From the NCBI GenBank assembly GCA_903945175.1, contig CAJAUM010000128.1, forward strand, positions 68,459 to 127,553: a DNA stretch of 59,095 nt. Direction: 5' to 3'. Shown piece after piece: positions 13,405 to 31,492 of the stretch. Under the pieces are notes generated by a model. It had not been told where the DNA came from. It saw nothing but the letters and a program-made list of their open reading frames with translations, and ran no database searches. Both the position numbers and the translations under genes were made by a program. Every line of letters starts with the position of its first letter. Within the stretch, counting starts at the first letter, position 1. The stretch comes from an uncultured Bacteroidales bacterium (GTDB lineage Bacteria; Bacteroidota; Bacteroidia; Bacteroidales; FEN-979).

Positions 13405-15135
13405 ATGAAATCGTCAAAGGCCAATACCGACAAGAATAAGGTTTTAAAAATCGCAGCTGGCGTTATGGTTGTTTTTTTTATGACAAACCTGAGCGCAATC
13501 GTTGAATCTTTTATAAATCCGGAAATTCCATATTTTGACAAAGAACATTTGATTGTTGGTTCCATTACAGGCTTTGTCAGCTTTGTTCTCCTGGGGTTGG
13601 TAATGGTCTATGTAAATTGGTTGCAGGATATTAATAGTAAGAACAAAACGGCCAACGAAGACTTAACGGAATCGGAAGAAAAGTACCGTGTACTCCTTAA
13701 CGGAAGTTCATATGGCGTTTTAGCCATCGACATCGAAACTTACCGGTTCCTGTTTTCCAATCCCGCCATTGGCAAACTATTCGGATATACGGATGAAGAA
13801 TTTCAGCAGATCAGTATTGAGAAACTGGTGCCAAAGGAGACGTTGGATAGGGTGATGTCAGAATTTGCCTCCCAGATGGAGGGAAAGAGATCCGTATCTT
13901 TTACCCAGGCTTGTCTGAGAAAAGATGGAACCGTTTTTTATGCCGACATTGCCGTCGCCCCCATTATCCTCCATGGTAAGAGATGCTGTGTGGGTTTTTT
14001 TATGGATGTGACCGACCGCAGGCATGCAGAAGAGGCCTTGAGGGAAAGTGAGGCAATTCACCGCAATTTAATAGAGCGGATGTTGGATGGGGTGTATAAA
14101 AGCACCCCCGATGGAAAATTTATAGATGTGAACCCGGCTCTGGTTAAGATGCTGGGGTATGACAGTAAAGAGGAGTTGCTTGCCATTGATATCAAGAAGC
14201 AATTATATTTTGAACCCGCCGATCGTGAAAGCCTGCTATTGCTTGACAAATATGGAGAGGTGACAGATTACCCCGTGAAAAAAAAGGATGGTTCAACGAT
14301 TTGGGTCGAAGATCACGGATGGTATATCATGGGTGAAAATGGAGAAGTCCTGTTTCACGAAGGAATAACGAGGGACATCACTGAACGAAAGCATGCAGAA
14401 GAGGTAATAAGGCTAAAAAACGAGCAGCTTGTTCAGGCGAATGCCGAAAAAGATAAATTCTTTTCTATCATTGCCCACGACCTGCGCAGCCCGTTTCATC
14501 CACTCCTTGGTTATACCCGTTTGCTGGTCGAAAACTTGCCCACACTGAAGCAGGACGAGATTCATAAAATGGCTGTGAATATGAGTCATTCTGCATCCAA
14601 ACTATTTAACCTGCTTGAAAACCTGCTTGAGTGGTCGCGCATGCAAAGGGGTTTGACCACCTTTGAGCCGGAGGCCTTTTTATTGATGCCCAAACTTTCT
14701 GAAAGTCTGCTGATGACTGCGGAAGCAATCGCAAGTAAGCAGATTGAACTCAGGTATGATATATCAGAAGATTTAACTATTTTTGCCGACAACAATATGT
14801 TTGAATCCATTGTTCGCAACCTCGTGTCCAATGCCATAAAATTCACCAAGCCGGGGGGAGAGATTTCAATCGCGGCAAAGCCAGCGGATGATCATTGGGT
14901 TGAAATCAAAATCAAAGACAACGGGGTCGGAATGAACCAGGAAATTCTGGAGAATATTTTCAAACTGAATGCCGATACAAACCGGAGGGGCACTGAGGGC
15001 GAACCCAGTTCAGGACTGGGATTATTCATCTGCAAGGATTTCATTGAAAAACATGGAGGCAAATTATGGGTGGAGAGCGAGGTTGACAGGGGAAGCACTT
15101 TTTCGTTCACATTGCCAGCCAGTAACCACAAGTAA
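13405..15135 (+). CDS. membrane PAS sensor histidine kinase
   Basis: 576 residues from the ATG at 13405. A TTG 42 bases earlier is possible but less likely. Two membrane helices lie near residues 14-35 and 52-75. Two PAS domains follow (about 90-215 and 225-340, the first starting YRVLLNGSSYGVLAIDIETY). The HisKA domain has phosphoacceptor His358 (SIIAHDLRSP). The ATPase domain has N-box NLVSNAIKFT, G1 DNGVGM and G2 GLGLFICKDFIEKHGG. There is no receiver domain and no adjacent response regulator. The signal is unknown. A thioredoxin-like gene follows within 21 bases. Confidence 0.88.
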   Translation: MKSSKANTDKNKVLKIAAGVMVVFFMTNLSAIVESFINPEIPYFDKEHLIVGSITGFVSFVLLGLVMVYVNWLQDINSKNKTANEDLTESEEKYRVLLNGSSYGVLAIDIETYRFLFSNPAIGKLFGYTDEEFQQISIEKLVPKETLDRVMSEFASQMEGKRSVSFTQACLRKDGTVFYADIAVAPIILHGKRCCVGFFMDVTDRRHAEEALRESEAIHRNLIERMLDGVYKSTPDGKFIDVNPALVKMLGYDSKEELLAIDIKKQLYFEPADRESLLLLDKYGEVTDYPVKKKDGSTIWVEDHGWYIMGENGEVLFHEGITRDITERKHAEEVIRLKNEQLVQANAEKDKFFSIIAHDLRSPFHPLLGYTRLLVENLPTLKQDEIHKMAVNMSHSASKLFNLLENLLEWSRMQRGLTTFEPEAFLLMPKLSESLLMTAEAIASKQIELRYDISEDLTIFADNNMFESIVRNLVSNAIKFTKPGGEISIAAKPADDHWVEIKIKDNGVGMNQEILENIFKLNADTNRRGTEGEPSSGLGLFICKDFIEKHGGKLWVESEVDRGSTFSFTLPASNHK

Positions 15136-15156
15136 ACAGTAACAAGAATTATTTTA

Positions 15157-15429
15157 ATGAAGGATAAGCCGGTACCCATAAAGATTGAAATGTTTTACAC
15201 GTTGACCTGTCCTAACTGTAAACCGTTCAAACGAATGATTACTGAAGTTTTACCGGATTTCGGAGATAAGTTTAAATTTAAAACAACGTTGGCCAATGCA
15301 CCGTTAGGTATGATACGAAGCCTGAAATTAGGTATCCATACCGTACCAACACTGTTAATCGACGATGTAATCGTATTCAGGGAGCTCCCTGCCAGACAAG
15401 AATTAATCAATAAACTTAACATGTATTAA
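15157..15429 (+). CDS. small thioredoxin-fold protein with CPNC motif
   Basis: 90 residues, a bare glutaredoxin/thioredoxin-like fold. It has a CPNC redox pair at residues 18-21 after the first strand (IEMFYTLT) and a cis-proline loop TVPTLLID. There is no signal peptide, so it is cytoplasmic. It may act as a dithiol reductase or a thiol-metal carrier. It sits between the PAS kinase and a small membrane protein with which it is almost certainly co-transcribed (2-base gap). Confidence 0.75.
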   Translation: MKDKPVPIKIEMFYTLTCPNCKPFKRMITEVLPDFGDKFKFKTTLANAPLGMIRSLKLGIHTVPTLLIDDVIVFRELPARQELINKLNMY

Positions 15430-15431
15430 CT

Positions 15432-15665
15432 ATGGAACAAAAGAAAAAACTCAGATGCCCCATGGGTATACCTGGTGGTATCATAGCCGTTTTAATAGGT
15501 TTAGTTGGAATTGTTGCCAACAGCATATGTTTTAACTGGATAGGTTTAATAACCTCCGCCGCCTTGTTTTTGCTTGGGGGACCATTCGTTCGCATTACCA
15601 TGATGATTCACGCTGCAAACGATCGGTTGGACGAACTGGAACGTAAAATGGCAGAGAAAAAATAA
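15432..15665 (+). CDS. small two-helix membrane protein, unknown function
   Basis: 77 residues. A basic N-terminus and CPMGIPGG precede two hydrophobic helices (about 14-31 and 35-53). A charged C-terminal helix ends LERKMAEKK. I do not recognise a family. Its start is 2 bases after the thioredoxin-fold gene stop, so the two probably work together, perhaps with the small protein acting on a thiol or metal near the membrane. That is inference from position only. Confidence 0.65.
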   Translation: MEQKKKLRCPMGIPGGIIAVLIGLVGIVANSICFNWIGLITSAALFLLGGPFVRITMMIHAANDRLDELERKMAEKK

Positions 15666-15674
15666 GTATCTCCT

Positions 15675-16298
15675 GTGTTGATTCGTACCAATAACTTTCC
15701 TCTTATTGTTGTCTTCCTTTTTTCCCTGGCACTATCCTATTCCATGGAGGCCCAATCATGGGACTTTATAAAGGAAAAGGATGGGATTAGAATTTTCACC
15801 CGAAAGGAGGGCGGAAATTCGCTGAAATCATTTAGAGGGGTAGCCGAAATTCATGCACCGATTGAAGATGTTTACAATTTGATCGGAAATGTAAAAAATC
15901 TTGACTGGTGGGATAAAAACCTGCGTGAGATTAAGGTGCTGCATTATGAAAAGGAAAAGCGGGCACAGTATTACCTGGTTTATGATTCACCATGGCCGGT
16001 AACTGATCGCGATCTGTGTGTGGATGCAACGATTACAACCGACCCGGTGACGGGGGTACGCACAATCCGTGCAGTGCCGTTGGAGAATGTGGTTCCTGAA
16101 AATCATGCCTACGTAAGGATTAAAGAATACAGGCAAAGCTGGATCCTTACTCCAACCGGCAAAGGCGTGGTACATGCCGTACTCGAAGGCTACGTGGATC
16201 CCGCAGGAAGAGTTCCAGACTGGATATATAACATGGTCATAACAGACACCCCACTGAAAATTATACGTGGCATCAAGCAGCGGCTGGAAAAGCATTGA
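15675..16298 (+). CDS. secreted START-domain lipid-binding-like protein
   Basis: About 207 residues. Translation probably begins at GTG 15675 or TTG 15678, because the first ATG lies inside the signal peptide cleavage region. The hydrophobic stretch LIVVFLFSLALSYS followed by MEAQS looks like a signal peptide. The rest matches a START/SRPBCC fold: WDFIKEKDGIRIFTRKEGG, then SFRGVAEIHAPIEDVYNLI, and SPWPVTDRDLCVDAT. START domains bind lipids or other hydrophobic ligands in a deep cavity. It sits directly before the inferred lipid-remodelling region, which makes a lipid ligand plausible but unproven. Confidence 0.75.
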   Translation: MLIRTNNFPLIVVFLFSLALSYSMEAQSWDFIKEKDGIRIFTRKEGGNSLKSFRGVAEIHAPIEDVYNLIGNVKNLDWWDKNLREIKVLHYEKEKRAQYYLVYDSPWPVTDRDLCVDATITTDPVTGVRTIRAVPLENVVPENHAYVRIKEYRQSWILTPTGKGVVHAVLEGYVDPAGRVPDWIYNMVITDTPLKIIRGIKQRLEKH

Positions 16299-16339
16299 CC
16301 TTTTATGGGTTATTTCGCACATTTCAGGTTTCAGAAATA

Positions 16340-16366
16340 TTAAATCTTCATTAACAAATCGTTAAG
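16340..16366 (+). promoter_or_regulatory. PHO-box-like 11-bp repeats before glycosyltransferase remnant
   Basis: TTAAA (16340), TTAAC (16351) and TTAAG (16362) lie exactly 11 bases apart. A weaker TTATT continues the register at 16373. A -7-like GATATTTG is at 16393-16400. The same arrangement recurs at three other places in this phosphate region. Confidence 0.5.
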
Positions 16367-16414
16367 GCTGAATTATTTTCAGAACAACCCTCGATATTTG
16401 CATAAAAACACTTT

Positions 16415-16610: not shown

Positions 16611-17261
16611 TCAGGCCAGCTTGATCAGGATGGTTTTGATAATGTCTGAAACGTCTTCGGCAGAATCAACAGCCTTCTCAAGTGTGCCAAAGATTTCCTT
16701 GTTCTTAATCAGCTCAATGGTATCTTTCTCATACTCAAAGAGATCAGAAATTCCGCTGTGATAAAGATCATCGGCTTTATTTTCGAGTGTATTGATGCTG
16801 ATGCATCCCTGCATGATTTTTTCCCTGTTTTTAACGGAATCCTTCAACCCGAGAAGGAGCAGTTCCAGTTCGGTGGCCGCAGCATCAATGATCTCTGCAA
16901 ACTCAACAAAGGGTGAAATGAGTACTTTGGGCTTGTAAAGGTTTATTCGCTGACTTGCTCCGTTGATATAATCCAAAACGTCATCCAGTCTGGACGCTAG
17001 CGACTGGATATCTTCACGGTCGAAGGGGGTAATAAACGATTTGTTAAGTTGAATATATATCCTGTGGGTTACGTCGTCACCCTCATGTTCGACCTCTTTG
17101 ATCTTGCGGGTCAAAACCGCTCGCTGTTCCATGGTCTCGGAGGCCATAAGCGATTTTAATAGCACGGTAGCTTTTTTAAGAATTTTTGCATCTTCCTCAA
17201 ATAACGGAAAAAAAGAGGTATCGTTTGGGACAAAAAATTTAAGAAATGAATCCAGTTTCAT
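16611..17261 (-). CDS. DUF47 family PiT-associated protein (PhoU-like)
   Basis: 216 residues, all helical, of the DUF47/PhoU-like family. Recognisable stretches are EGDDVTHRIYIQLNKSFITP and FDREDIQSLASRLDDVLDYI. Members are encoded next to low-affinity PiT phosphate transporters and are thought to control them. The gene begins 18 bases after the PiT stop on the same strand, consistent with an operon. It is cytoplasmic, with no membrane segments. Confidence 0.88.
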   Translation of the reverse strand: MKLDSFLKFFVPNDTSFFPLFEEDAKILKKATVLLKSLMASETMEQRAVLTRKIKEVEHEGDDVTHRIYIQLNKSFITPFDREDIQSLASRLDDVLDYINGASQRINLYKPKVLISPFVEFAEIIDAAATELELLLLGLKDSVKNREKIMQGCISINTLENKADDLYHSGISDLFEYEKDTIELIKNKEIFGTLEKAVDSAEDVSDIIKTILIKLA

Positions 17262-17279: not shown

Positions 17280-18266
17280 TTAATTCACAAGTTGCAGAAA
17301 ACTGAAAACCAATGCACCGATGGCCGCTGAAACAGGGATTGTCAGGATCCATGCCCAGAAAATCTTGGTCGTTACGCCCCATTTCACGGCAGAAACCCCT
17401 TTACGGGCTCCTGCTCCGATAATTGCACCTGTAATGGTATGGGTGGTACTTACCGGAATGCCAAGTTCGGTAGCGCCAAACAAGGTAAGCGCCCCAGCGC
17501 TTTCCGCGCAAAAGCCTTCAAATGGTTTGAGTTTGGTGATCCGCTGCCCCATGGTCTTTACAATCCTCCAGCCACCAAACATGGTTCCCACCGCAATGGC
17601 TGCATGGCATGACAGGACGATCCATAATGCAATGGGATCATTTTTGGTTGCATGGCCCGTGACAATCAGGGCTACCCAGATAATACCCATCGACTTTTGG
17701 GCATCATTGCCCCCATGACCCAGGCTGAACGCAGCTGCTGAGAGCAGCTGTAATTGCCTGAAATATTTGTCAATTTTAGTAGGTGGGAAATTACGGCAAA
17801 TCCACAGGACGATGGCAGAAATGATGAATGAAATAATCATTCCCAGAACCGGAGCTATCACAATGAATGCCATGATCTTGACCAATCCTCCGACCACAAC
17901 CGAACCAAAACCAGCTTTCGCAACGGCTGCGCCTACCAATCCGCCAACCAGGGTATGAGAAGAACTGGATGGGAAACCCCACCACCAGGTTAGAAGATTC
18001 CATGTAATGGCGGCAAGAAGAGCGGCAGCAATCACGTTTAGGTTAATAACGTCAGGATTTACAACCCCTTTTCCAATGGTGGTTGCAACATTTAAACTAA
18101 AAATCAGGAAGGCAACGAAATTAAAAAAGGCTGCAAATGCAACGGCGCTAAATGGGGAAAGCACTTTTGTTGATACGACGGTCGCAATGGAATTCGCTGA
18201 ATCATGAAAACCATTGATAAAATCGAAAACCAGGGTGAGGCTTATTACAATGATCAGGAAGGTCAT
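17280..18266 (-). CDS. pitA: PiT family inorganic phosphate transporter
   Basis: 328 residues from the ATG at 18266, the first residue before the opening membrane helix. An upstream in-frame ATG adds 20 polar residues and would overlap the promoter element. Signature sequences are NGFHDSANSIATVVSTKVLS near the N-terminus, GHGGNDAQKSMGI in the middle and GIPVSTTHTITGAIIGAG in the second repeat. About ten membrane helices are visible. It moves phosphate with cations at low affinity. It pairs with DUF47 downstream. The metallophosphoesterase gene lies 113 bases upstream on the same strand. Confidence 0.92.
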   Translation of the reverse strand: MTFLIIVISLTLVFDFINGFHDSANSIATVVSTKVLSPFSAVAFAAFFNFVAFLIFSLNVATTIGKGVVNPDVINLNVIAAALLAAITWNLLTWWWGFPSSSSHTLVGGLVGAAVAKAGFGSVVVGGLVKIMAFIVIAPVLGMIISFIISAIVLWICRNFPPTKIDKYFRQLQLLSAAAFSLGHGGNDAQKSMGIIWVALIVTGHATKNDPIALWIVLSCHAAIAVGTMFGGWRIVKTMGQRITKLKPFEGFCAESAGALTLFGATELGIPVSTTHTITGAIIGAGARKGVSAVKWGVTTKIFWAWILTIPVSAAIGALVFSFLQLVN

Positions 18267-18295
18267 GTATTGAACATTAGAGGATTCAACCGCAG

Positions 18296-18303
18296 CAAAT
18301 CTA
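18296..18303 (-). promoter_or_regulatory. -7 element for PiT-DUF47 operon
   Basis: The minus strand reads TAGATTTG followed by C, an exact TAnnTTTG match 29 bases before the preferred PiT start. There are no 11-bp TTAAN repeats here, unlike the other phosphate genes. Confidence 0.4.
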
Positions 18304-18379
18304 AAACAAATTAAATTAATCTGCATGCGAAAAAGACCCGACTGTCAAAATAATTTCAATGAACCAAATGCAGATATAT

Positions 18380-19234
18380 TTACTTCAGATTAAATTCTTT
18401 GAGAAGCTCCTCGAATGTTTCTTTGTGACTTGGAGATTCAGCCTGTTTCGAAGCAACCGCATAGGCCTGGGCAAAGAGATCTTCCCTGTAATTGTAAATC
18501 CTCCATTCGCCTTCATGAAATTCAAGCGCTGAAAGATTTTCAATCCAGTCGCCTGAATTCATGTAGGTAACCGACCCCTGGGCATTGGAAATGGTCCTGA
18601 TTTCAGGCTGATGGATATGACCGCAGATCACATTGGCGTAGCCTTTTGAAATGGCAATGCCAGCAGCAGTCTCCTCGAATTTATTGATATATGAAACAGC
18701 ACGTTTTACCCCATGTTTGATTTTTCGGGAAAAGGAGATCTTCTCACGACCGATGCTTGTCAAAAGAAAATTTGTGAAACTATTAAGGAGGATTAAAAGG
18801 TCATAACCGAATGACCCAAATCTTGCCAGCCATTTGCTGTACTGCATGGTTATGTCAAATACATCGCCATGGAAGATCCATGTTTTCTGTCCGTCGAGCT
18901 CAATCAGCAATTTATTTACCATTTGAAAGGAACCAAGGTTGAATTTGACAAATTTCCGCATCAGTTCATCATGGTTTCCTGTTATGTAAATCACCTTCGT
19001 ATTTTTCGCAATCATCCCGGTCAGATGCCTGATCACCATCAGGTGCGATTTTGGAAAGTAACGTTTACGAAACTGCCAGATATCGATAATATCCCCGTTC
19101 AGGATAAGCATTTTGGGTTTAATGCTTCGCAGGTAATGCAGCAATTCCTTGGCATGACATCCAAATGCACCGAGATGAACATCGGAGATGATAACCAGGT
19201 CAACTTCACGTTTGGGTATTGGGTGTTGTTTCAT
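18380..19234 (-). CDS. PlcP/LpxH-like metallophosphoesterase
   Basis: 284 residues, calcineurin-like fold with a complete metal site: Asp18 and His20 (ISDVHLG), Asp48 (NGDIID), Asn87-His88 (TGNHDE), His122 (FHGDVFD), His206 and His208 (CGHIHQPE). It would usually be annotated as UDP-2,3-diacylglucosamine hydrolase. The SDVHLGxxGC opening, the CGHIH and NSGDWIE sequences and the length resemble PlcP, the phospholipase C that frees diacylglycerol from phospholipids under phosphate starvation in other bacteria. A divergent GT4 gene, a PHO-box-like array and a PiT gene around it support that reading. There is no signal peptide, so it probably acts on the inner leaflet. Confidence 0.65.
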   Translation of the reverse strand: MKQHPIPKREVDLVIISDVHLGAFGCHAKELLHYLRSIKPKMLILNGDIIDIWQFRKRYFPKSHLMVIRHLTGMIAKNTKVIYITGNHDELMRKFVKFNLGSFQMVNKLLIELDGQKTWIFHGDVFDITMQYSKWLARFGSFGYDLLILLNSFTNFLLTSIGREKISFSRKIKHGVKRAVSYINKFEETAAGIAISKGYANVICGHIHQPEIRTISNAQGSVTYMNSGDWIENLSALEFHEGEWRIYNYREDLFAQAYAVASKQAESPSHKETFEELLKEFNLK

Positions 19235-19244
19235 ATGAAGGCAG

Positions 19245-19252
19245 CAAAGATA
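19245..19252 (-). promoter_or_regulatory. -7 element for the metallophosphoesterase gene
   Basis: The minus strand reads TATCTTTG followed by C, an exact TAnnTTTG match only 10 bases before the ATG. The nearest unit of the 11-bp repeat array starts 22 bases upstream of it. That is almost the same spacing as at the porin promoter (21 bases). Confidence 0.55.
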
Positions 19253-19274
19253 CCTGGATGGATCAACGGCTATG

Positions 19275-19323
19275 TTAACAGCTTATTACGAAAACATTAA
19301 ATTACTGTTAAGAAATTATTAAG
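19275..19323. promoter_or_regulatory. five-unit PHO-box-like array in divergent promoter region
   Basis: TTAAC (19275), TTACG (19286), TTAAA (19297), TTAAG (19308) and TTAAG (19319) are spaced exactly 11 bases apart, the longest such array in the window. It lies between the metallophosphoesterase gene (minus) and the glycosyltransferase transcript (plus). Cyanobacterial PHO boxes are 8-bp PyTTAAPyPy(T/A) repeats with 3-bp gaps, giving the same 11-bp period. Confidence 0.6.
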
Positions 19324-19387
19324 TTTAGGAAACCTGTGAAAAGATGACCTCTTTTATCCGGAAATTTGTCGGCAAATAGATGGTATC

Positions 19388-19636
19388 ATGAAAAAAGACA
19401 AACAAAAAACAAAAGTTAAGGCCAGTATTTCAAGTAATGAATCACTTCCATTGCTTCGTGGGATGTTCATATGCCCTAAGTCTATAAAATATCTCAAAAA
19501 CGCTTCATATTCAGAATTTCTGCGCGATTTTTTTGCCCTTATCGATCCTTTTCAACCTTCATCCATGGAACATATCAATGGACAGCAAGATTCAAACTGG
19601 ACCATCACGGAAGAGGGATCTCTTATGGTTAAATAG
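19388..19636 (+). CDS. hypothetical 82-residue protein or leader ORF
   Basis: 82 residues, very basic at the N-terminus (MKKDKQKTKVKAS). I recognise no domain, signal peptide or membrane segment. It starts 64 bases after the PHO-box-like array and ends 18 bases before the glycosyltransferase ATG, so it would be on the same transcript. The coding quality is poor compared with its neighbours. It may be a genuine small protein, a leader, or decayed sequence. Confidence 0.35.
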   Translation: MKKDKQKTKVKASISSNESLPLLRGMFICPKSIKYLKNASYSEFLRDFFALIDPFQPSSMEHINGQQDSNWTITEEGSLMVK

Positions 19637-19654
19637 CCGGATAACTGTCAGGAT

Positions 19655-20818
19655 ATGAAGATGCCAGAGAATGAACCAAATCCACCCGACAGGGTATTGT
19701 GGATGACGGATACCTATGGAGACCATAACGGCGTTTCGACGGTGTTAAAATCCATTCACCAGGAGATAAAATCACGAAATCTGCCGATTGACCTGATGTT
19801 ATGCAGCAGCACGATCGAACCCGATGACCATCTCATTGTATTGAAACCTGTTTCGGAGTTTTCCTTTCCGCTTTACCGGCAGCAACCAATGCGGATCCCC
19901 AATTTCCTATCCATTCAGCGTACCTTCAGGCGGGGACATTATAACCGCATCATCTGTTCTACTGAGGGACCCATGGGATTGGCTGCCCTTTGGTTAAAAA
20001 AAGCCTTTTCAGTCGAGACGTACTTTTACCTTCATACCGACTGGCTGACCTTTGCAAAAGAGGTGTTGTCGCTCGAGGAGGCCGGACTGAAAAGGTTTCA
20101 AAAAGTGTTGCGGATTTATTATAAAAGGTTTGGGAAGATTTTTGTATTGAATACTGATCAGCAACAATGGCTTACCGGCAAAGGAATGGGTTTTGACTCT
20201 TCCCGCGTTTTCCTTACCGCACACTGGGCCGATAAGCTTTTTTCCGACACGCTGCCATTGAGCCAGACCCCGCTTCCGTTTAATCCTGAAGGGCCGGTGA
20301 TGCTTTATACCGGACGGATAAGCAAAGAGAAGGGAGTGATGGAACTTCCCGGTATTGTCGCGATGGTCAGATCAGTTTTGCCGGAGATACAAATGGTCAT
20401 TGCAGGAACAGGCCCTGCTGAAATAGAACTTAAAAGAGTCCTGCCGGAGGCTTTTTACCTGGGATGGGTTGGACACGAACATTTGCCTGCACTGTATAAA
20501 GCTTCTGATATCCTCTTGCTGCCTTCGCGTTTCGATACGTTTAGTTGTGTCGTTCTTGAAGCGCTGAGCAGCGGGTTGCCCGTTGCAGCATACAACGCCA
20601 AAGGTCCCAAGGATATTCTGGAGGATTCGGTAAGCGGTTATCTGGCCGGAAATGCCGAAGAGATGGCTGGAAAAGTAATAGGTTTTTTCCTGGACCCGCG
20701 TATTCGTAAGGAGATGAAACTGGCTGCCCGGAGCAGGGCAGAGGCTTACCAGGCTGAAGATATCATGGACAGGCTATTGCAGGATACCGGACTGATTGCA
20801 CAATCGTGTCCGGTATGA
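19655..20818 (+). CDS. GT4 glycosyltransferase, candidate glycolipid synthase
   Basis: 387 residues, GT-B fold. The N-terminal domain has TDTYGDHNGVSTVL. The C-terminal nucleotide-sugar domain has YTGRISKEKGV, LGWVGHEHLPALYKASDIL and LLPSRFDTFSCVVLEALSSG, in which Asp replaces the first Glu of the usual E-x7-E motif. There is no membrane helix, so it would be peripheral. It is divergent from the PlcP/LpxH-like gene across a shared repeat array. This matches the plcP-agt pairing, where Agt glycosylates diacylglycerol. The acceptor cannot be read from the sequence. The stop overlaps the next gene by ATGA. Confidence 0.7.
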   Translation: MKMPENEPNPPDRVLWMTDTYGDHNGVSTVLKSIHQEIKSRNLPIDLMLCSSTIEPDDHLIVLKPVSEFSFPLYRQQPMRIPNFLSIQRTFRRGHYNRIICSTEGPMGLAALWLKKAFSVETYFYLHTDWLTFAKEVLSLEEAGLKRFQKVLRIYYKRFGKIFVLNTDQQQWLTGKGMGFDSSRVFLTAHWADKLFSDTLPLSQTPLPFNPEGPVMLYTGRISKEKGVMELPGIVAMVRSVLPEIQMVIAGTGPAEIELKRVLPEAFYLGWVGHEHLPALYKASDILLLPSRFDTFSCVVLEALSSGLPVAAYNAKGPKDILEDSVSGYLAGNAEEMAGKVIGFFLDPRIRKEMKLAARSRAEAYQAEDIMDRLLQDTGLIAQSCPV

Positions 20819-22431
20819 GCAAACAGTTTGCCGAACCATGGATCTGGTGGAAACACGGGGTGATCTACCACATCTATCCACGCAGTTTTCAGGACTCCAA
20901 TGGAGACGGGGTTGGAGATATCCAGGGCATCATCCGCCGGCTGGGATATCTTAAAGAGCTGGGAATTGAAGGAATCTGGCTTTCTCCCATGTACAAGTCC
21001 CCGATGGTTGATTTCGGTTACGATGTATCAGGGTACCGTGAAATAGACCCGGATTTCGGAACCATGGATGATTTTATTGAACTGCTGGATAAAGCCCATG
21101 ATGCCGGGATTCGCATCATCCTGGATATGATCCTGAACCATACTTCCAACCAGCATCCCTGGTTCATCGAATCAGCATCATCCCCTGACAATTCCAAGCG
21201 TAACTGGTACATCTGGAAAGAGGGAATCAGGGGCGGTCCGCCCAATAACTGGAAATCGGCTGTTGGCGGCAGCGCATGGAAATTCGATGAACGAACCGGC
21301 CAATATTACCTGCATTCTTTTTTCGAGGAGCAACCCGACCTGAACTGGAGGGATGACGAACTATCTGCCGTTTTTTTCGAGGAGATGAAATTCTGGCTCG
21401 ATCTGGGTGTGGATGGTTTCCGGCTGGATGTGATCAATATGATTGCGAAGGATAAAAAATTCAGGAGTAACCCGGTTTTATTCGGAATCCCGGCGCTTCA
21501 AACGCATGTTTTTACCCGCAACAGGAAGCGATCTGTCACCATTGTAACCAGGATCAGGAAATTGCTCGACCGGTATGAGAACACCACATCCATCGGGGAG
21601 GTATACTCCCTTCCGCCGGGAAACGCAAAAACAGCAGCACGATACCTTGTCAGTGGGCATGATGGGATTCACCTTGCATTTGATTTTTCCCTGATTTTCA
21701 GCGCCTGGAATGCCCATTCTTATTTCAAATGCATTGAGGCATGGTACAACAGCATTCCTAAAAACGGCTGGCCCTGTAATGTAATGTCAAACCATGATCT
21801 TTTCCGTAGCATCGACCGCTTTCCATGGCGTATCAAACGGGAAGAGAAAGCCAAGGTTGCAGCGGCCCTGTTACTGACACTCAGGGGAACACCCTTTATC
21901 TATTATGGCGAAGAAATCGGCATGCACAATGGACGCATCCGCCGGAGTGATATCCGAGATCCGCTTGGAAAGCGATTCTGGCCATTGTTTACAGGCAGGG
22001 ATAAGGCCCGCACACCCATGCAGTGGACCCAGGATCCATCAGGCGATTTCACAACCGCTAAACCCTGGCTTCCGCTGAATAAGGACACCCGTTCACGGAA
22101 TGTTAAATACCAGGAAGGCCAGCCTTCTTCATTACTGAACCATTACAGGAACCTAATAAAGCTCCGCAGATCAAGCGATGCCTTGCAAAAAGGTTCCTGG
22201 GTTCCGGTATTCAATGGACAGCAGGGAATACTTTCCTATTTCCGGCTGACTGAAAATGAGCGAATCCTTGTGATCCTTAACTTTACAGGCCAGCACAAAA
22301 TTTGCTCACTTCCTGAGCATACCTATGGCAAAGTCCTATTTTCAACCCACAGGACGCCAGATGAATTCAACTATTTTCAGAAAATGCAGATTGGTCCTTA
22401 CGAAGCTACGATCTGCAGGGTGAGTGAATGA
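20815..22431 (+). CDS. GH13 alpha-glucosidase
   Basis: 538 residues from the ATG at 20815, which overlaps the glycosyltransferase stop (ATGA). A GTG nine bases earlier is less likely. The TIM-barrel motifs are clear: the N-terminal VIYHIYPRSFQDSNGDGVGD, DMILNHTS, nucleophile Asp in DGFRLDVIN, acid/base Glu in SIGEVYS, and SNHDLFRS. These motifs fit oligo-1,6-glucosidase/alpha-glucosidase members. No signal peptide is visible, so the enzyme is cytoplasmic. It would release glucose from maltodextrin or transfer it. Its tight coupling with a putative lipid glycosyltransferase is unusual. Confidence 0.88.
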   Translation: MSKQFAEPWIWWKHGVIYHIYPRSFQDSNGDGVGDIQGIIRRLGYLKELGIEGIWLSPMYKSPMVDFGYDVSGYREIDPDFGTMDDFIELLDKAHDAGIRIILDMILNHTSNQHPWFIESASSPDNSKRNWYIWKEGIRGGPPNNWKSAVGGSAWKFDERTGQYYLHSFFEEQPDLNWRDDELSAVFFEEMKFWLDLGVDGFRLDVINMIAKDKKFRSNPVLFGIPALQTHVFTRNRKRSVTIVTRIRKLLDRYENTTSIGEVYSLPPGNAKTAARYLVSGHDGIHLAFDFSLIFSAWNAHSYFKCIEAWYNSIPKNGWPCNVMSNHDLFRSIDRFPWRIKREEKAKVAAALLLTLRGTPFIYYGEEIGMHNGRIRRSDIRDPLGKRFWPLFTGRDKARTPMQWTQDPSGDFTTAKPWLPLNKDTRSRNVKYQEGQPSSLLNHYRNLIKLRRSSDALQKGSWVPVFNGQQGILSYFRLTENERILVILNFTGQHKICSLPEHTYGKVLFSTHRTPDEFNYFQKMQIGPYEATICRVSE

Positions 22432-22460: not shown

Positions 22461-22766
22461 CTAGAGTGCAATAACTGAATTCTCAGAACCCAGTCCGCTT
22501 GGAACGTGTTTGTCGGCCTCAGGCTCATTTTCCCAAATCGTTCCATCAATGAGGTAACGGAACTGGTACTCTTTGCCTGTTTCCAGATCCAGTGACACAG
22601 ACCATACACCGGTTTTTGCCATCTTTAATGGGGTTTCACCGAGTTGCCAGTTGTTGAAATTGCCAACAAGCAAAATGGACGATGCGGATTTATACTGATC
22701 TCCAGAGAGAGAAAATTTGACTTTACAAACAGGTTTTGCTTTTAAAAATTTCTTTTCGATGCTCAT
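22461..22766 (-). CDS. stand-alone CBM48 glycogen-binding protein
   Basis: 101 residues consisting almost only of an early-set/CBM48 module like that of the AMPK beta subunit. Visible landmarks are VKFSLSG, LVGNFNNW, GVWSVSLDLETGKEYQFRYL and a C-terminal NEPEADKHVPS. No catalytic domain and no signal peptide. It probably binds glycogen or another alpha-glucan in the cytoplasm, possibly to bring partners to it. It is convergent with the GH13 alpha-glucosidase and divergent from the TPR kinase. Confidence 0.85.
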   Translation of the reverse strand: MSIEKKFLKAKPVCKVKFSLSGDQYKSASSILLVGNFNNWQLGETPLKMAKTGVWSVSLDLETGKEYQFRYLIDGTIWENEPEADKHVPSGLGSENSVIAL

Positions 22767-25344: not shown

Positions 25345-25382
25345 TTAACAATTATTTAACCTAAAGGTAATCATTTGTTAAC
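25345..25382 (+). promoter_or_regulatory. PHO-box-like array upstream of phosphate porin-pst operon
   Basis: TTAAC at 25345, 25356 and 25378 are in exact 11-bp register, with a degenerate GTAAT at 25367. The last unit ends 21 bases before the -7 element, where a -33 element would lie. This is the geometry expected of a PhoB-type activator that replaces the upstream promoter contact. Confidence 0.62.
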
Positions 25383-25403
25383 ATTCCCTGTGGGAGGTAG
25401 AAA

Positions 25404-25411
25404 TAACTTTG
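25404..25411 (+). promoter_or_regulatory. -7 element for phosphate porin-pst operon
   Basis: TAACTTTG followed by CC, an exact TAnnTTTG match 23 bases before the ATG at 25435. It is placed 21 bases after the final TTAAC unit. Confidence 0.55.
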
Positions 25412-25434
25412 CCGCAAAATTAAAAACCAACCAC

Positions 25435-26973
25435 ATGAAAAAAATTACACGCCTCCTTTTAACATTTGGGTTGATCATTCCGATGTTGTTTGTTTCAACC
25501 AGTTCAAAAGCACAGAAGCAAGTTGATGAGCTTAAAAAAGAACAGGACACCCTGAAAGAAAATGTAACCACCCTGCGCGATAAGATCAGCGGTGTTGAAG
25601 AAAGAATTGCCACAGCCGAAGGCGATCTCGCCAAGCTGACCAAGATTAAATTATCGGGATACATCCAGGCCCAGTATATGCATTATGAGGCCTCCAACGC
25701 ATACCCCAGCAATGTGTTCATGTTGCGCAGGGTCAGGATCAAATTTCAATATGAGCCCATCAATGGGGTTGTTTTTGTACTGCAGCCAGATTTTTTACCC
25801 GGCAACATCACCCTGAAAGATGCTTACGTGCAGTTGAATGACCGCTGGCTGAAGACCTTTTCATTGTTTGCCGGTAAATTCAACAGGCCCAACTACGAAG
25901 TGGAATATTCATCCAGCAGCCGCGAAGTGCCTGAGCGTTCCCGCGTAATCCGCGCCATCTATCCCGATGAACGTGCAACCGGCGCCAAGTTGGAAATCGC
26001 TCCACCAAAAATTCCTTTGAAAGTACAGCTGGCCCTGTTCAACGGCAATGACGGTCTCACGATTTTGGATGCTGCCGGTGTAAATATCAACCCGCTGAAC
26101 AATGATTTTGACAATCACAAAGACTTTATGGGACGCGTGACCTATACCTTCAAATTGGGTCAGATCGGTGCTCTGGGAATTGGTGCACATGGTTATTATG
26201 GAAAGATCAAAGCCAACACGCTTGACGTGCTCAATTCTGATTACACCTATAACAGGACAAACGATAACATCGGACAACTCGTTAAGAAGAACTGGGTAGG
26301 TTTTGAGGCTCAGCTCTATTTCGATTTCCTGGGTGGCCTTGCCCTGAAAGGGGAGTACATCTTTGGTGTGAACGGAACTCCGGGATACACTTCAAAATCA
26401 AGTGCAGTAAGTCCGATGACCTCCGTGATTAAGAATGATACCCTTACCCTCACCACCCTCACGACCATCACCACCAACAGCAGGCCCGCCATCGAGAAAA
26501 ATTTCCAAGGATATTATATTTATCTGATCAAGAATATTGGCAAACGTCACCAGATTGCGGCCCGTTATGATTATTATGATCCCAACTCCAAAGTATCTTC
26601 CGACCAGATTGGAATAGCGAAATGGGATGCCGCCGTAAAAACCACAACGACCGATAAATTCACCTACGCCGGAACCGATGCCGTTATTGCTACCAATGCC
26701 CAAACCAAAACGGTGGTGGTCAACACCCTGAAAAGTGGTACCAGCGATATCAAATACCAGACCATTACGCTGGCCTACACCTACTATTTTGACGACAACA
26801 TCAAAATCATGCTCGGTTATGAGATCCCATTGAATAAAAAGGTTGGGGTTAATGACAAGGGTGTTGGAAATGTTACCACGGCTTATGCTGTAAATGGTGA
26901 ACCGGGTGTTTACGATTACAGCAATACGATCAAACAAAACACGCTGACCCTTCGTTTGCAGGTAAAGTTTTAA
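25435..26973 (+). CDS. phosphate-selective porin (OprO/OprP family)
   Basis: 512 residues from the ATG at 25435. A TTG 60 bases earlier lies upstream of the promoter element and is rejected. Signal peptide about 1-27 (ending SKAQ). A short coiled coil follows (KQVDELKKEQDTLKENVTTL, then RDKISGVEERIA), as in many Bacteroidota OprP-like porins that trimerise through it. The rest is a beta-barrel with alternating aromatic strands, ending LRLQVKF. It should let phosphate or polyphosphate cross the outer membrane. It is first in line before pstSCAB with only 43 bases between. Confidence 0.85.
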   Translation: MKKITRLLLTFGLIIPMLFVSTSSKAQKQVDELKKEQDTLKENVTTLRDKISGVEERIATAEGDLAKLTKIKLSGYIQAQYMHYEASNAYPSNVFMLRRVRIKFQYEPINGVVFVLQPDFLPGNITLKDAYVQLNDRWLKTFSLFAGKFNRPNYEVEYSSSSREVPERSRVIRAIYPDERATGAKLEIAPPKIPLKVQLALFNGNDGLTILDAAGVNINPLNNDFDNHKDFMGRVTYTFKLGQIGALGIGAHGYYGKIKANTLDVLNSDYTYNRTNDNIGQLVKKNWVGFEAQLYFDFLGGLALKGEYIFGVNGTPGYTSKSSAVSPMTSVIKNDTLTLTTLTTITTNSRPAIEKNFQGYYIYLIKNIGKRHQIAARYDYYDPNSKVSSDQIGIAKWDAAVKTTTTDKFTYAGTDAVIATNAQTKTVVVNTLKSGTSDIKYQTITLAYTYYFDDNIKIMLGYEIPLNKKVGVNDKGVGNVTTAYAVNGEPGVYDYSNTIKQNTLTLRLQVKF

Positions 26974-26993: not shown

Positions 26994-27001
26994 TAAATTT
27001 G
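26994..27001 (+). promoter_or_regulatory. possible internal promoter before pstS
   Basis: TAAATTTG is an exact TAnnTTTG match 15 bases before the pstS ATG in a 43-base AT-rich gap. No PHO-box-like repeats precede it, so pstS may mainly depend on the porin promoter. Confidence 0.35.
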
Positions 27002-27016
27002 GTAAATTGTAAAACA

Positions 27017-27856
27017 ATGAAAAAAATGAAACTAAAATTCGGAATAGCATCCATTGTAATGCTTGCGATATTGGGCTTCGCCTTTATGCCTGCTCAAAAA
27101 AAAATAACAGTAAAGGGTTCTGATACCATGGTCATCCTGGCGCAGAAGTGGGCAGAGGTTTATATGAAATCACACGCCGAAACAGTCGTGCAGGTTACAG
27201 GTGGCGGATCAGGAACGGGCATTTCCGCCCTGATCAATGGCGCGACGGATATCTGCAACTCCAGCCGCCCCATGAAACAAACGGAAATGGATAAGCTGAA
27301 AGACCGTTATGCCTCCCTGGGTGTTGAGATCCCCTGTGCAAAGGATGGAATCACCATTTTTTTACATGAATCAAACCCTGTTAAAGAGTTAAGCCTAAAA
27401 CAACTGAGTAATATTTTCTCAGGCAAGACCCGCAACTGGAAAGAGGTTGGCGGCCCCGATGAGGATATCAAATTGTACGGTCGTGAAAACAGCTCCGGAA
27501 CGTACGTGTTTTTCAAGGATCAGGTCGTAAAGGCTGATTATGCAGCCAATTGCCAAACATTGCCTGGTACTGCGGCTGTTGTGAATGCTGTTTCGAAAGA
27601 TAAATTAGGCATTGGTTATGGTGGCGCTGCCTATGCTGCCGGGGTGAAACATTGTGCTGTGAAAAAAGATGACAAGAGCCCGGCTTTTGTTGCCAATGCT
27701 GAAACAGTTAAAAAGGGACAATACCCGATTACCCGTTATCTCTATATGTATCTCAAGAATCGTCCAACAGGAGAGATGAAGGCTTATATTGACTGGATCC
27801 TCAGTCCTGAAGGACAAAGCCTGGTCACAGCAGTTGGTTATTTCCCGGTAAAATAG
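27017..27856 (+). CDS. pstS: phosphate ABC transporter substrate-binding protein
   Basis: 279 residues from the ATG at 27017. A TTG 18 bases earlier lies inside the promoter element. A signal peptide covers about 1-26, with no lipobox cysteine. Phosphate-binding loops are visible: KGSDTMVILAQKWAE, GGGSGTGISALING, CNSSRPM and GRENSSGTYVFF. It delivers phosphate to PstCA in the inner membrane. A strong hairpin separates it from pstC, which could hold PstS transcript above the permease level. Confidence 0.93.
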   Translation: MKKMKLKFGIASIVMLAILGFAFMPAQKKITVKGSDTMVILAQKWAEVYMKSHAETVVQVTGGGSGTGISALINGATDICNSSRPMKQTEMDKLKDRYASLGVEIPCAKDGITIFLHESNPVKELSLKQLSNIFSGKTRNWKEVGGPDEDIKLYGRENSSGTYVFFKDQVVKADYAANCQTLPGTAAVVNAVSKDKLGIGYGGAAYAAGVKHCAVKKDDKSPAFVANAETVKKGQYPITRYLYMYLKNRPTGEMKAYIDWILSPEGQSLVTAVGYFPVK

Positions 27857-27885
27857 TTTTGTTTGTAATAGGTTAATCGGTTGAG

Positions 27886-27906
27886 GGCAACATCCGAGAT
27901 GTTGCC
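27886..27906 (+). terminator. intercistronic hairpin between pstS and pstC
   Basis: GGCAACATC (27886-27894) pairs perfectly with GATGTTGCC (27898-27906) across a CGA loop and is followed by TTT. The T-tract is short, so partial read-through or 3'-end protection of pstS mRNA is more likely than full termination. Confidence 0.5.
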
Positions 27907-27927
27907 TTTGGCCGTTAAAAAAATACC

Positions 27928-29049
27928 ATGGAAGAACCAATTGGAATAAACAAATTTGTTTTCAGCAGGGAGTCGTTAAAGAAGAAATTCCGGTTGTCGG
28001 AGTTTCTTTCTGAAAAGATCATCACCGGCGTTGCTTTTCTGTCAATTACCATCATTGTGCTGATCTTCTTTTTCGTTTTCAAGGAGTCCATTCCCATTTT
28101 TCAATCAAAGAAGAAGGAGATTGCAAAAGTTGAAACAGTTCAGAAGCAGGAGCAATATGGAACGGATAGCAGTGTAGCGACCAATTTGTCAGGTCAGGAG
28201 CAGTACGGGGTTACCGGGACAGATTCACTGATGACCGAAAACCAGATTCTGGAGGAGGATACCGTTGTTCACGGATCGGACGAGGCAACGGCAAAAAGTC
28301 TGATGGGAAAGCAATGGTTGCCGGTTTCTGACAATCCAAGGTATGGCCTGATCCCACTTTTTGTTGGCACCCTGAAGATCACCCTCATTGCCATGTTGTT
28401 TGCTGCACCCATTGCCATCCTTGCAGCCCTGTTTTCAGCTGCCTTCGCACCCCACTGGCTGCGTGAAATCATCAAGCCTGCGATAGAATTGCTGGCAGGG
28501 TTTCCGTCGGTGGTGATCGGTTTTTTCGCGCTGATGGTGATGGCCTCCTTTTTCCAGAATTTGTTCGGATACGACGGCCGCCTGAATGCATTTGTTGGCG
28601 GTGTGGCGATGGCCCTGGCTGCCATCCCGATCATTTATACCATTACCGAAGACGCACTTACCGCCGTACCACGTACCTATACCGAAGCCAGCCTGGCGCT
28701 GGGGGCCACGCGCTGGCAAACAGCCCTGTTTGTGACCCTCCCGGCTGCCACTCCAGGCATATTTGCAGCGATCCTGCTCGGGATCGGACGTGTGTTTGGT
28801 GAAACGATGATCGCCCTGATGGCCACCGGAAATGCCGCCATGATCGGGATCAACCCGTTTGAATCGGTCCGTACGCTGGCTGCCACGATTGGCGCCGAGA
28901 TGGCTGAAGTGGTGTTTGGAGACACCCATTACAATGTGCTCTTCCTTATCGGCTCACTGCTGTTTATTTTTACATTCAGCCTCAATGCCCTTGCCGAATT
29001 TTATGTGAAGGGGAAATTGGTGAAACGTTTTCAAGGGAAACAATCATGA
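27928..29049 (+). CDS. pstC: phosphate ABC transporter permease PstC
   Basis: 373 residues. The first membrane helix is at about 33-55. It is followed by a hydrophilic insert of about 70 residues (roughly 60-130) that canonical PstC lacks at this length. The insert contains two related EQYG...TDS segments. The normal permease core then begins at GLIPLFVGTLKIT and contains the EAA loop [12 protein letters not shown]. It forms the inner-membrane channel with PstA. Its stop overlaps the pstA start by ATGA. Confidence 0.92.
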   Translation: MEEPIGINKFVFSRESLKKKFRLSEFLSEKIITGVAFLSITIIVLIFFFVFKESIPIFQSKKKEIAKVETVQKQEQYGTDSSVATNLSGQEQYGVTGTDSLMTENQILEEDTVVHGSDEATAKSLMGKQWLPVSDNPRYGLIPLFVGTLKITLIAMLFAAPIAILAALFSAAFAPHWLREIIKPAIELLAGFPSVVIGFFALMVMASFFQNLFGYDGRLNAFVGGVAMALAAIPIIYTITEDALTAVPRTYTEASLALGATRWQTALFVTLPAATPGIFAAILLGIGRVFGETMIALMATGNAAMIGINPFESVRTLAATIGAEMAEVVFGDTHYNVLFLIGSLLFIFTFSLNALAEFYVKGKLVKRFQGKQS

Positions 29050-29945
29050 GCAGGCGAAAATCAATTACCGGCGGCCTTTTTATTGGCCTTACAGCGTTTT
29101 CAGCCATCCTGATTATTGCCGTGATTATTATCCTGCTTGTGGTAATCATCATCGGTGGAAAAGATACCTTTTCCTGGGAATTCCTCACTGCTTTCCCTGA
29201 AGATGGCATGATGAAAGGGGGAATTTTCCCGGCTATCTTTGGAACGGTGTTATTGGTGCTTATCATGTCCATTGCAGCCGTTCCGTTTGGAACCATTACA
29301 GCCATTTACCTGACCGAATATGCCCATGAGAAATCCATCCTGGCACAAACCATCCGTTTCGCCGTGAGAACGCTTGCTACGGTCCCATCGATCATTTTCG
29401 GATTGTTCGGGCTTGGATTTTTTATCAAATACGTAGGTAGCGGGATGGACGATCTGTTTTTGGGTGGACAGTTGAAATGGGGTCAACCCAATATTCTGTG
29501 GGCCAGTCTTACCATGGCACTGCTTACGCTGCCGGTCGTGATTGTCTCGGTTGAAGAGGCCATCCGCACGGTGCCACGCGAAATGCGCGAAGCAAGCCTT
29601 GCACTGGGCGCCACGAAATGGGAAACCATCAAACGGATCGTTATTCCGGGTTCCCGCTCAGGGATCATGACCGGAACCATCCTGGCCGTCAGCCGCGGTG
29701 CCGGAGAGGTAGCCCCGATCCTGTTTACCGGCGCAGCCTATTACCTGGCAACACTTCCAACATCGCTCAGCGATCAGTTCATGAACCTCGGATATCATAT
29801 TTACATCATGGCAACCCAGTCGGCCAATGTGGATCAGACACTGCCTATCCAGTTTGCCACCACCATGGTGCTCTTATTACTTACTTTTATGTTAAATTTG
29901 ACAGCTGTCATCATCCGTTCACGGCTGCGCAGGAAGGCCAAATAA
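29046..29945 (+). CDS. pstA: phosphate ABC transporter permease PstA
   Basis: 299 residues with six membrane helices. The EAA coupling loop [20 protein letters not shown] and the sequence YLTEYAHEK are typical of PstA. It starts four bases inside pstC (ATGA overlap), showing translational coupling. Together with PstC, PstB and PstS it imports phosphate using ATP. Confidence 0.94.
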
Positions 29946-29964
29946 TCAACGAAGTACCAGAATA

Positions 29965-30723
29965 ATGAAAGAGATAAAGATCAAAACAAAGAATTTAAGC
30001 CTGTACTACGGAGCAAAGATGGCCTTGAACTCCATCTCCCTTGATATCCCGGAAAAGGAAGTCACCGCCTTCATTGGCCCGTCAGGGTGCGGAAAATCGA
30101 CCTTTCTTCGTACGTTGAACCGCATGAATGACCTCATCCCAAATGTGAAGATAACCGGTGAAGTACTGGTTGACGGACTAAACATTTATGATAAACAGAT
30201 CGATGTGGTTAATCTCAGAAAAAAGGTGGGGATGGTTTTTCAAAAGTCGAATCCCTTTACCAAATCCATTTATGAGAATGTTGCCTATGGCCCCAAGATC
30301 AATGGGATTAACAACAGAAAGAAACTGGAGGAAATCGTTGAAACCTCTTTGAAAAATGCTTTTATCTGGGAAGAGGTTAAAGACAGGTTGCATGATTCGG
30401 CCATGGGATTGTCCGGTGGCCAGCAGCAGCGCATGTGCATCGCCCGGGCACTGGCCGTGGAACCTGAAATCATTCTGATGGATGAACCTGCCAGCGCCCT
30501 GGATCCGATTTCAACGGCAAAGATCGAGGAGCTAATCTTCGAATTGAAAAAAAAATATACCATCGTTATTGTTACACATAACATGCAACAGGCAGCCCGT
30601 GTGAGTGATCTCACGGCCTTCTTTTACCTGGGCGAACTGATCGAATTCGGCAAGACCAGGAAAATTTTTACCACGCCGGATAAAAAGCATACGGAAGAGT
30701 ATATTACCGGAAGGTTTGGATAA
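29965..30723 (+). CDS. pstB: phosphate ABC transporter ATPase PstB
   Basis: 252 residues. Walker A is GPSGCGKST, the signature is [15 protein letters not shown], and Walker B is [13 protein letters not shown], followed by the switch histidine in [13 protein letters not shown]. The TGRFG C-terminus is normal for PstB. It is a cytoplasmic dimer that powers PstCA. It lies 19 bases after pstA. Confidence 0.96.
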
Positions 30724-30731
30724 TCACAAAC

Positions 30732-30791
30732 GTGACAGGTGACGCGTGACGCGGGAAAAAAAAATTGGTAATTGGTCATTGGTAATTAGTA
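30732..30791. repeat. short heptamer arrays between pstB and phoU
   Basis: Three GTGACNN units (30732-30752) are followed by four ATTGGTA-type units (30764-30791). Both are 7 bases long. The second unit family is the same word as ATTGGTC near 9725, and the first resembles GTGACGA near 46016. Confidence 0.8.
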
Positions 30792-30802
30792 ATTCGAAAA
30801 TT

Positions 30803-31492
30803 ATGGAGAGGCATTTTGAACAAGAACTAGAGAAGCTGAACAAGCGGATCCTCAAGATGGGGAACCTGGTGTATGAACAGGTTCACAACGCACTCGAAGC
30901 CCTGCTTACGGGTAATGTTGAATTGGCTCAGCAGGTTGTAGGTAACGACAACCAGGTTGACAGGCTCGATGTGAAAATTGACAAGTTATGCCAGCGTATT
31001 TTTGCCCTGACGCAGCCGGTAGCCACTGATCTGCGCCTGATCATGTCGGCGCTGAAAATGAACAACGACCTGGAGCGCATGGGCGACCTTGCCGTTAGCA
31101 TTTCTGAAAAAGCAGAGGGTATCAGCGAATACAAGGAAATTCTGATAGAACTCCATGTGGACGAACTGGCCAGCATGGCCGATCTGATCGTGAAGGATGT
31201 GGTCAACATCCTGCATACAAAAAATACCACCTTTGTAAAGGATATCTTCACTTCAGCCAGCGCCATCGAGGAGAAGATTCAGTCCATATCAGCCAGAATC
31301 CTGGATGAGATGATGCATAAAACTGAGGTGATCGTGGTGGCCACCAACCTGATGATCATCCTGACGCATATCGACCGTATTGCGGGCTATTCAACCAACA
31401 TAGCCGAATCGATCGTTTTTGTTGTTGAGGGCAGGATAATCAAGCATAAGGGAAAATTTCAGCAGGATGCCGTTTCCGATGTCCCCCTTTGA
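30803..31492 (+). CDS. phoU: phosphate signalling protein PhoU
   Basis: 229 residues from the ATG at 30803. An earlier in-frame GTG sits within the heptamer repeats and is rejected. Two repeats of the PhoU three-helix bundle are visible, with the metal-binding motifs ALKMNNDLERMGDLAVSI and THIDRIAGYSTNIAESIVFV. PhoU restrains the Pho response through PstB and the sensor kinase when phosphate is ample. It is in the pst operon, but no PhoR or PhoB is adjacent. Confidence 0.93.
   Translation: MERHFEQELEKLNKRILKMGNLVYEQVHNALEALLTGNVELAQQVVGNDNQVDRLDVKIDKLCQRIFALTQPVATDLRLIMSALKMNNDLERMGDLAVSISEKAEGISEYKEILIELHVDELASMADLIVKDVVNILHTKNTTFVKDIFTSASAIEEKIQSISARILDEMMHKTEVIVVATNLMIILTHIDRIAGYSTNIAESIVFVVEGRIIKHKGKFQQDAVSDVPL

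Follow-up and report, generated by a model that had tools for sequence, protein, structure and literature searches.

A candidate lipid-renovation module in an uncultured Bacteroidales bacterium pairs a PlcP-type phosphoesterase with a GT4-GH13 unit

Gene sets that save phosphate by swapping membrane lipids are known. In the proteobacterial PlcP-Agt systems (P. aeruginosa PA3219-PA3218 and PA0842, SAR11, Agrobacterium, Sinorhizobium, and Phaeobacter), a PlcP-family phosphoesterase gene adjoins a GT4 glycosyltransferase gene and the promoter is of the Pho-box type; PMC8528852 describes the P. aeruginosa PA3219-PA3218 operon with its lipids and the activity of Agt2 (PA0842). Here, we analyzed a 59,095-nucleotide (nt) stretch of the genome of an uncultured Bacteroidales bacterium ("the window"), which shares these three features. 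Its phosphoesterase and GT4 genes are, however, divergent rather than operonic, with a Pho-box-like array between them; a GH13 gene is attached, and the GT4 lies outside the Agt clade. We consider it reasonably probable that the locus is a phosphate-starvation lipid-renovation module, a hybrid of PlcP and a GT4-GH13 half. Relatives of its GT4 are fused to an unrelated PHP-like domain, which may carry out the first step of such an exchange.

PlcP in Bacteroidota is already published and is not new (PMC4796936, PMC8115612). According to PMC4796936, PlcP homologs of Flavobacteria, that of Dokdonia (MED134) among them, are induced by phosphorus starvation; Dokdonia then loses about one third of its phospholipids, and aminolipids are its distinctive lipids. 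PMC8115612 lists F. johnsoniae Fjoh_4577 as PlcP, induced at low phosphate with a strong change; a strong change is also given for Fjoh_0541, a glycosyltransferase in the phoBR operon. These proteins belong to the same family and phylum as the window phosphoesterase; Fjoh_4577, however, is an orphan. For comparison, we used 61 genomes of relatives (own genome included), 393 genomes of the order, and named Bacteroidota loci, the latter being the best 80 of 592 candidates, to which all counts of named loci refer.

The phosphoesterase and its promoter

The window phosphoesterase (Table 1) is 40% identical over 248 amino acids (aa) to a P. aeruginosa reference protein, whose gene lies upstream of a glycosyltransferase gene and cyaB, in that order. 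This gene order is our basis for calling the reference PlcP; we take it to be PA3219. Identity to a Sinorhizobium protein is 32%, and the gene of that protein lies near genes of a LuxR-type regulator and an acyl-homoserine-lactone synthase, presumably the locus of the studied PlcP. The PlcP metal-ligand motifs SDxHLG, GDxxD, GNHDE, HGD, and CGHIH are all present; among them are SDVHLGAFGC, GNHDE, and CGHIH, the first and last of which match the PlcP-like SDVHLGxxGC and CGHIH reported by a first-pass annotation of this DNA. In a tree including 24 of the 80 named loci (our choice), the phosphoesterase grouped with PlcP, and 70 PlcP-like rows were separated from 3 LpxH rows with a support of 100, as obtained by a quick method and with a long LpxH branch.

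LpxH has the same fold as the window phosphoesterase, and databases label such proteins UDP-2,3-diacylglucosamine diphosphatase. LpxH was also the closest solved fold to the predicted structure of the phosphoesterase (mean pLDDT 81.4; 15 to 18% identity), and when solved structures were searched by sequence, LpxH was the only match, a weak one. The protein could thus be a second LpxH of the lipid A pathway, with the array and the GT4 being incidental. On the LpxH model, however, it scored 38.7 bits, compared to 80.6 bits for another gene of the same genome (C52:67762-68451), which is likely the true LpxH and which also scores under the equivalog cut-off (190.35). The outcome that the first-pass annotation had named as refuting its reading, clustering with true LpxH and no other LpxH in the genome, was thus not observed. 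Separate LpxH-type genes were found in 22 of the 24 relatives' genomes carrying the phosphoesterase (own genome included) and are near-universal (at most 57 of the 61 genomes), while the phosphoesterase is patchy within the genus. The number 24 excludes G040, whose match was its LpxH-type gene; in G035 and G053 the sole match to the LpxH model was the phosphoesterase itself, and in G009 the match was a fragment. Considering the low model score, the better candidate elsewhere in the genome, and the split in the tree, we rejected the LpxH reading as highly improbable. The sequence comparisons support a PlcP-type enzyme. A second, distant clade of PlcP-like proteins (~40% identity; L066-L068 and L081) occurs in the order and in Parabacteroides, where the gene is followed by that of a PF13528 glycosyltransferase.

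The five-unit PHO-box-like array of the first-pass annotation proved to be exact. It consists of KTAAY repeated five times every 11 base pairs (bp) with 0 mismatches, and no such array with up to 2 mismatches occurred in 100 dinucleotide shuffles. After its last unit, a 21-nt gap leads to TATCTTTG, which matches TAnnTTTG, an element that we take to be of the Bacteroidota −7 type. When up to 3 mismatches are allowed, the window contains two matches to the combination of three units and TAnnTTTG at 21 nt (0.04 matches expected). Both matches have 0 mismatches and lie before the phosphoesterase gene and before the porin-pst operon; they are also the only 0-mismatch matches in the whole genome. 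At up to 3 mismatches, there were 17 matches genome-wide compared to 10 for the reversed pattern, and therefore matches of this level are mostly noise.

The architecture is conserved among relatives. In 21 phosphoesterase promoters (the window included), the number of mismatches was 0 in 11, 1 in 3, 2 in 4, 3 in 2, and 5 in 1, while the reversed pattern never had fewer than 4; the match started 64 to 66 nt upstream of the gene start used in 18 of these promoters. Mean identity among 11 same-genus promoters (again with the window) was 96% in motif columns and 58% in spacers, and the two outer array units, which had been left out of the search, fitted in all 11. Upstream of ten porin genes, 0 mismatches were found in 5 cases, 1 in 1, and 2 in 3; the window's own 0-mismatch site is omitted from this count since the open reading frame (ORF) start used lies inside the site (scored 6). 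As a control, 8 of 600 random stretches were within 2 mismatches, but the stretches were taken from the same loci, and true sites may be among them. Among the named Bacteroidota PlcP genes, 76 were scanned and 10 had a site within 2 mismatches, compared to 2 for the reversed pattern, which is too weak for a phylum-wide claim. We take the array as a putative phosphate-regulon operator of this lineage, to which a regulator may bind, and the promoter of the phosphoesterase gene as being of the Pho-box type, judging by its sequence.

The −7-type element ends ~10 nt upstream of the phosphoesterase ATG (19235-19252, minus strand), and the leader would therefore be very short or absent. A scan for five units at 2 mismatches revealed two further places in the window, one of them being the porin site. 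The other, a third array-like match at 16328-16376 (minus strand), occupies the gap between the end of a plus-strand ORF (16298) and the DUF47-PiT pair; no gene that it might control is apparent.

The GT4 glycosyltransferase and its phosphoesterase partners

The divergent GT4 gene was found as first described. In plasmid records, GT4 relatives were considered in the 40 of 462 records listed. Among these, relatives in Sphingomonas (H36), Roseomonas gilardii (H50), and P. aeruginosa (H51) lie beside PlcP genes, and a further P. aeruginosa relative (H37) lies 3′ of plcR. We take H37 to be Agt2 (PA0842). The listed Rhizobium and Roseomonas mucosa relatives are without PlcP context, and that of Acinetobacter adjoins a PAP2 phosphatase gene. 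A single-sequence structure model of the GT4 was discarded (mean pLDDT 36.9). The GT4 probably works like Agt though it stands outside the Agt family, and glycosylation of diacylglycerol is predicted.

In other genomes, the window-type GT4 forms the C-terminal portion of a larger protein (~860 to 945 aa). Open frames of 884 to 945 aa first raised the suspicion of a GT4-GH13 fusion, which was rejected, as the extra part is N-terminal and PHP-like. Within its N-terminal 500 residues, DLHCHD, TNHNN, EF, AHPLY, and GSDSHMG are invariant in 10 of 10 aligned proteins; we take these motifs to be the complete set of PHP metal ligands. The first two to three motifs are in register with E. coli YcdX and RNase AM (hhalign E 0.014 and 0.022; probability 2 to 3%). 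No significant match to a curated model or a solved structure was obtained: PF02811 matched one of three proteins with an E of 0.16, and a profile search of the PDB with the domain retrieved no PHP chain. We read the domain as a PHP-type phosphoesterase, an activity suggested by its motifs. The first plasmid match of a PHP-fused GT4 was the Agt2 reference H37 (6e-24, 98% covered); at strict limits, the PHP part and the GT4 had no match in plasmid records. Among the papers listed by literature searches for a PHP-glycosyltransferase link, we judged none relevant and none ties such a domain to lipid turnover; one passage concerned another system.

Of the 393 order genomes, 22 encode the PHP-like domain. 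The matching GT4 accompanies it in 21 and is cut by the contig end in the last one. No PlcP-type match was found in these 22 genomes compared to 67 of 393 overall (one-sided p 0.014, without kinship correction; the 67 include the distant ~40%-identity clade). When relatives and order samples were combined, 25 genomes had a PHP-fused GT4 and none of them a PlcP match. In contrast, a PlcP-type phosphoesterase gene adjoins 20 of 21 standalone GT4 genes (19 of 20 in the relatives sample and that of G231 in the order sample), and the remaining one, in G004, is located at a contig end. The fusions of the relatives sample (G030, G036, G059, and a broken copy in G019) are all without the phosphoesterase. 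In genus g3, G027 has the standalone form with PlcP, while G030 and G036 have the fused form; in genus g2, G026 is standalone with PlcP and G019 is fused. The G019 locus (L173, 5417-8203), a PHP-GT4-GH13 set beside porin-pst, appears broken, with the GT4 and GH13 each matched in two pieces.

In the GT4 tree, the forms adjacent to PlcP make one clade (support 99) beside the fused forms, which corresponds to one change. Overall, this GT4 pairs with a phosphoesterase in two ways, through an adjacent PlcP gene or a fused PHP-like domain, an observation that is new. The PHP-GT4-GH13 loci of the order have homologous GT4 and GH13 but no PlcP match, whereas the window has a standalone GT4 with PlcP. 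That the fused form is so widespread suggests that PHP was lost and PlcP gained, the root being unsure.

The usual partner of PlcP in the phylum is different. A PF13528-type glycosyltransferase gene is located directly 3′ of the phosphoesterase gene in 56 of the 80 named loci and nearby in 2, with none in 22; it was also found in 11 of 13 further loci of the order. GH13 matches were absent from all 80 named loci, and weak GT4 matches (21 to 29% identity, on the other strand) in 12 of them were not counted as orthologous. The window's own genome has no PF13528-type transferase by a search that matches 23 of the 393 genomes. In the phosphoesterase tree, the window lineage nests among the enzymes paired with PF13528 transferases, and the early-branching L064 and L281 have no adjoining GT4. 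The window module looks like a hybrid, in which a PlcP gene stands in place of the fused PHP domain and GT4-GH13 is kept.

Layout of the locus

The PiT, porin, and pst genes that the first-pass annotation placed nearby are present (Table 1). The nearest solved relatives of the GH13 protein are alpha-glucosidases such as 3wy1. Among 20 relatives' loci with a standalone GT4, the GH13 gene comes directly after the GT4 gene in 18, and the other 2 are cut off. The adjacent carbohydrate-binding module (CBM) gene is kept beside GH13 in several same-genus loci. Stretches resembling the 82-aa ORF (31 to 53% identity) occur in 9 of 18 relatives' loci with both phosphoesterase and GT4, in 10 of 20 with a standalone GT4, and near one PHP-GT4 locus (L169). 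The idea that the ORF is left over from the PHP domain was rejected, as the ORF is without PHP motifs and the similar stretch in L169 is separate from the fusion.

Table 1. Features of the locus (window coordinates).
Feature	Position	Strand	Family match or remark
PlcP-type metallophosphoesterase, 284 aa	18380-19234	−	Metallophos; PF12850 E 3.4e-11, PF00149 E 9.1e-9
Pho-box-like array facing the phosphoesterase gene, five KTAAY units, 11-bp steps	19274-19322	−	
Three proximal array units, 21-nt gap, and TATCTTTG	19245-19300	−	−7-type element at 19245-19252
82-aa ORF	19388-19636	+	no match in family search
GT4 glycosyltransferase, Agt-like, 387 aa	19655-20818	+	PF00534 E 2.1e-24; homologous to C-terminal part of PHP-GT4 fusions
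GH13 alpha-glucosidase-like protein	20806-22431	+	PF00128 E 1.9e-129; 13-nt overlap with GT4
Small glycogen-binding-type CBM protein, 3′ of GH13	22461-22766	−	
Array and −7 geometry ahead of porin-pst operon	25356-25411	+	matches phosphoesterase promoter
Porin, OprP/O-like (ORF reading, no family search)	25375-26973	+	true start probably ATG near 25435
pstS, pstC, pstA, pstB, phoU (ORF reading, no family search)	26999-31492	+	
PiT phosphate transporter	17280-18326	−	PF01384
DUF47 / PhoU-like partner of PiT	16611-17261	−	PF01865

A second cluster of phosphate-regulon look was observed on contig C41 of the same genome (L049, 7217-18195). It contains genes for an EEP-type phosphatase, a TonB-dependent receptor, a BACON-domain protein, an OmpR-type response regulator, and another GT4 (GT4b), as well as a transposase-like ORF (14764-15948). 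Its array-like sites lie at C41:8713 (1 mismatch) and at 8239 and 8302 (2 mismatches), with others at 3 mismatches.

Proposed mechanism and its alternatives

Under phosphate scarcity, a PhoB-type regulator would bind the 11-bp array and switch on the phosphoesterase gene and the porin-pst operon together; the GT4 gene would also be under Pho control. The phosphoesterase would strip the phosphate headgroup off membrane phospholipids, leaving diacylglycerol, to which the GT4 would attach a sugar to yield a phosphate-free glycolipid. GT4 enzymes keep the anomeric configuration of the sugar donor, which is usually alpha, and the substrates of GH13 enzymes are alpha-glucosides; therefore, the pairing suggests an alpha-glucolipid as the product, and GH13 would probably trim, remodel, or extend its alpha-linked sugar. 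The GT4-GH13 half is of the type seen across the order in PHP-GT4 fusions with GH13 behind them, and the PlcP is of the usually PF13528-paired kind.

The PlcP-Agt logic put forward by the first-pass annotation held for its PlcP half and for the Pho-type promoter, as far as sequence can tell, while its Agt half stood in part: the GT4 is Agt-like, near Agt2 and PlcP-adjacent transferases, but several findings weigh against the proposed mechanism. In a comparison tree of 15 of 42 grouped GT4s, the window-type clade (support 99) is separate from the characterized Agt clade (94) and the GT4 is placed outside the latter, in a quick tree with long branches. No Pho box faces the GT4 gene in the window (best match at least 5 mismatches), nor was one found within 2 mismatches in any of 18 GT4-side regions. 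GH13 has no clear role and is the weakest step. On the GT4 tree the partner exchange is a single event, so that the genomes counted are not independent observations, and in G231 the phosphoesterase match is limited to the first 160 residues. Further, Dokdonia, which carries a Bacteroidota PlcP, gains aminolipids and not glycolipids (PMC4796936), and GT4b is a second candidate diacylglycerol glycosyltransferase in the same genome.

The last two points form an alternative that we consider unlikely, though it is the strongest of the rivals: PlcP-type turnover is real, but GT4b glycosylates diacylglycerol or the product is an aminolipid, and the window GT4-GH13 serves another alpha-glucoside. GT4b matches the alpha-monoglucosyl-diacylglycerol synthase model nearly over its full length with 87.9 bits, compared to 33.4 for the window GT4 (cut-off 400), and a Pho-like site precedes the neighboring PhoB-like regulator gene, although with 3 mismatches it belongs to the matches that are mostly noise. 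The missing Pho box on the GT4 side and the aminolipids of Dokdonia fit this alternative as well. However, from one genome to the next the window-type GT4 goes together with the phosphoesterase or else carries the PHP-like domain. In addition, pst, porin, PiT, or PhoU genes are found in 8 of 25 fetched PHP-GT4 stretches, and Pho-like sites with up to 3 mismatches at 8 of 23 PHP-GT4 loci (0 of 23 for the reversed pattern). Less likely still is a sugar-phosphate pathway, in which the GT4 makes a phosphorylated alpha-glucoside, the metallophosphoesterase or PHP domain dephosphorylates it, and GH13 degrades the trehalose- or sucrose-like product. The GT4 family includes sugar-phosphate synthases, synthase-phosphatase fusions are known, relatives of this GH13 hydrolyze small alpha-glucosides, and the glycogen-binding-type CBM gene adjoins GH13 in several same-genus genomes. 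Yet the phosphoesterase groups with PlcP, its kin lie elsewhere beside Agt-type or PF13528 transferases, and its gene has a Pho-type promoter.

Returning to the lipid-renovation module, we tentatively extend it to the fusions, a proposal that we judge possible but somewhat doubtful. PHP-GT4 may be a single-chain lipid-renovation enzyme, the PHP-like domain being a phospholipase C or phosphatidate phosphatase of a new class whose product, diacylglycerol, passes to the fused GT4; in the window module, PlcP would have replaced the lost domain, with GT4 and GH13 kept.

The Pho-box geometry proposed for this lineage (11-bp units, 21 nt, TAnnTTTG) could be used to chart phosphate regulons of uncultured relatives. 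If the proposals are correct, phosphate-saving lipid exchange in Bacteroidota would be modular and come in three versions: PlcP with a PF13528 transferase gene behind it, the PHP-GT4 fusion with GH13 behind it, and PlcP next to a divergently oriented GT4-GH13 pair. A phosphoesterase-like domain would share a polypeptide with a glycosyltransferase, making substrate hand-over directly testable, and an unrelated enzyme, PlcP, would have taken over the step of the fused PHP domain while the glycosyltransferase and GH13 were retained.

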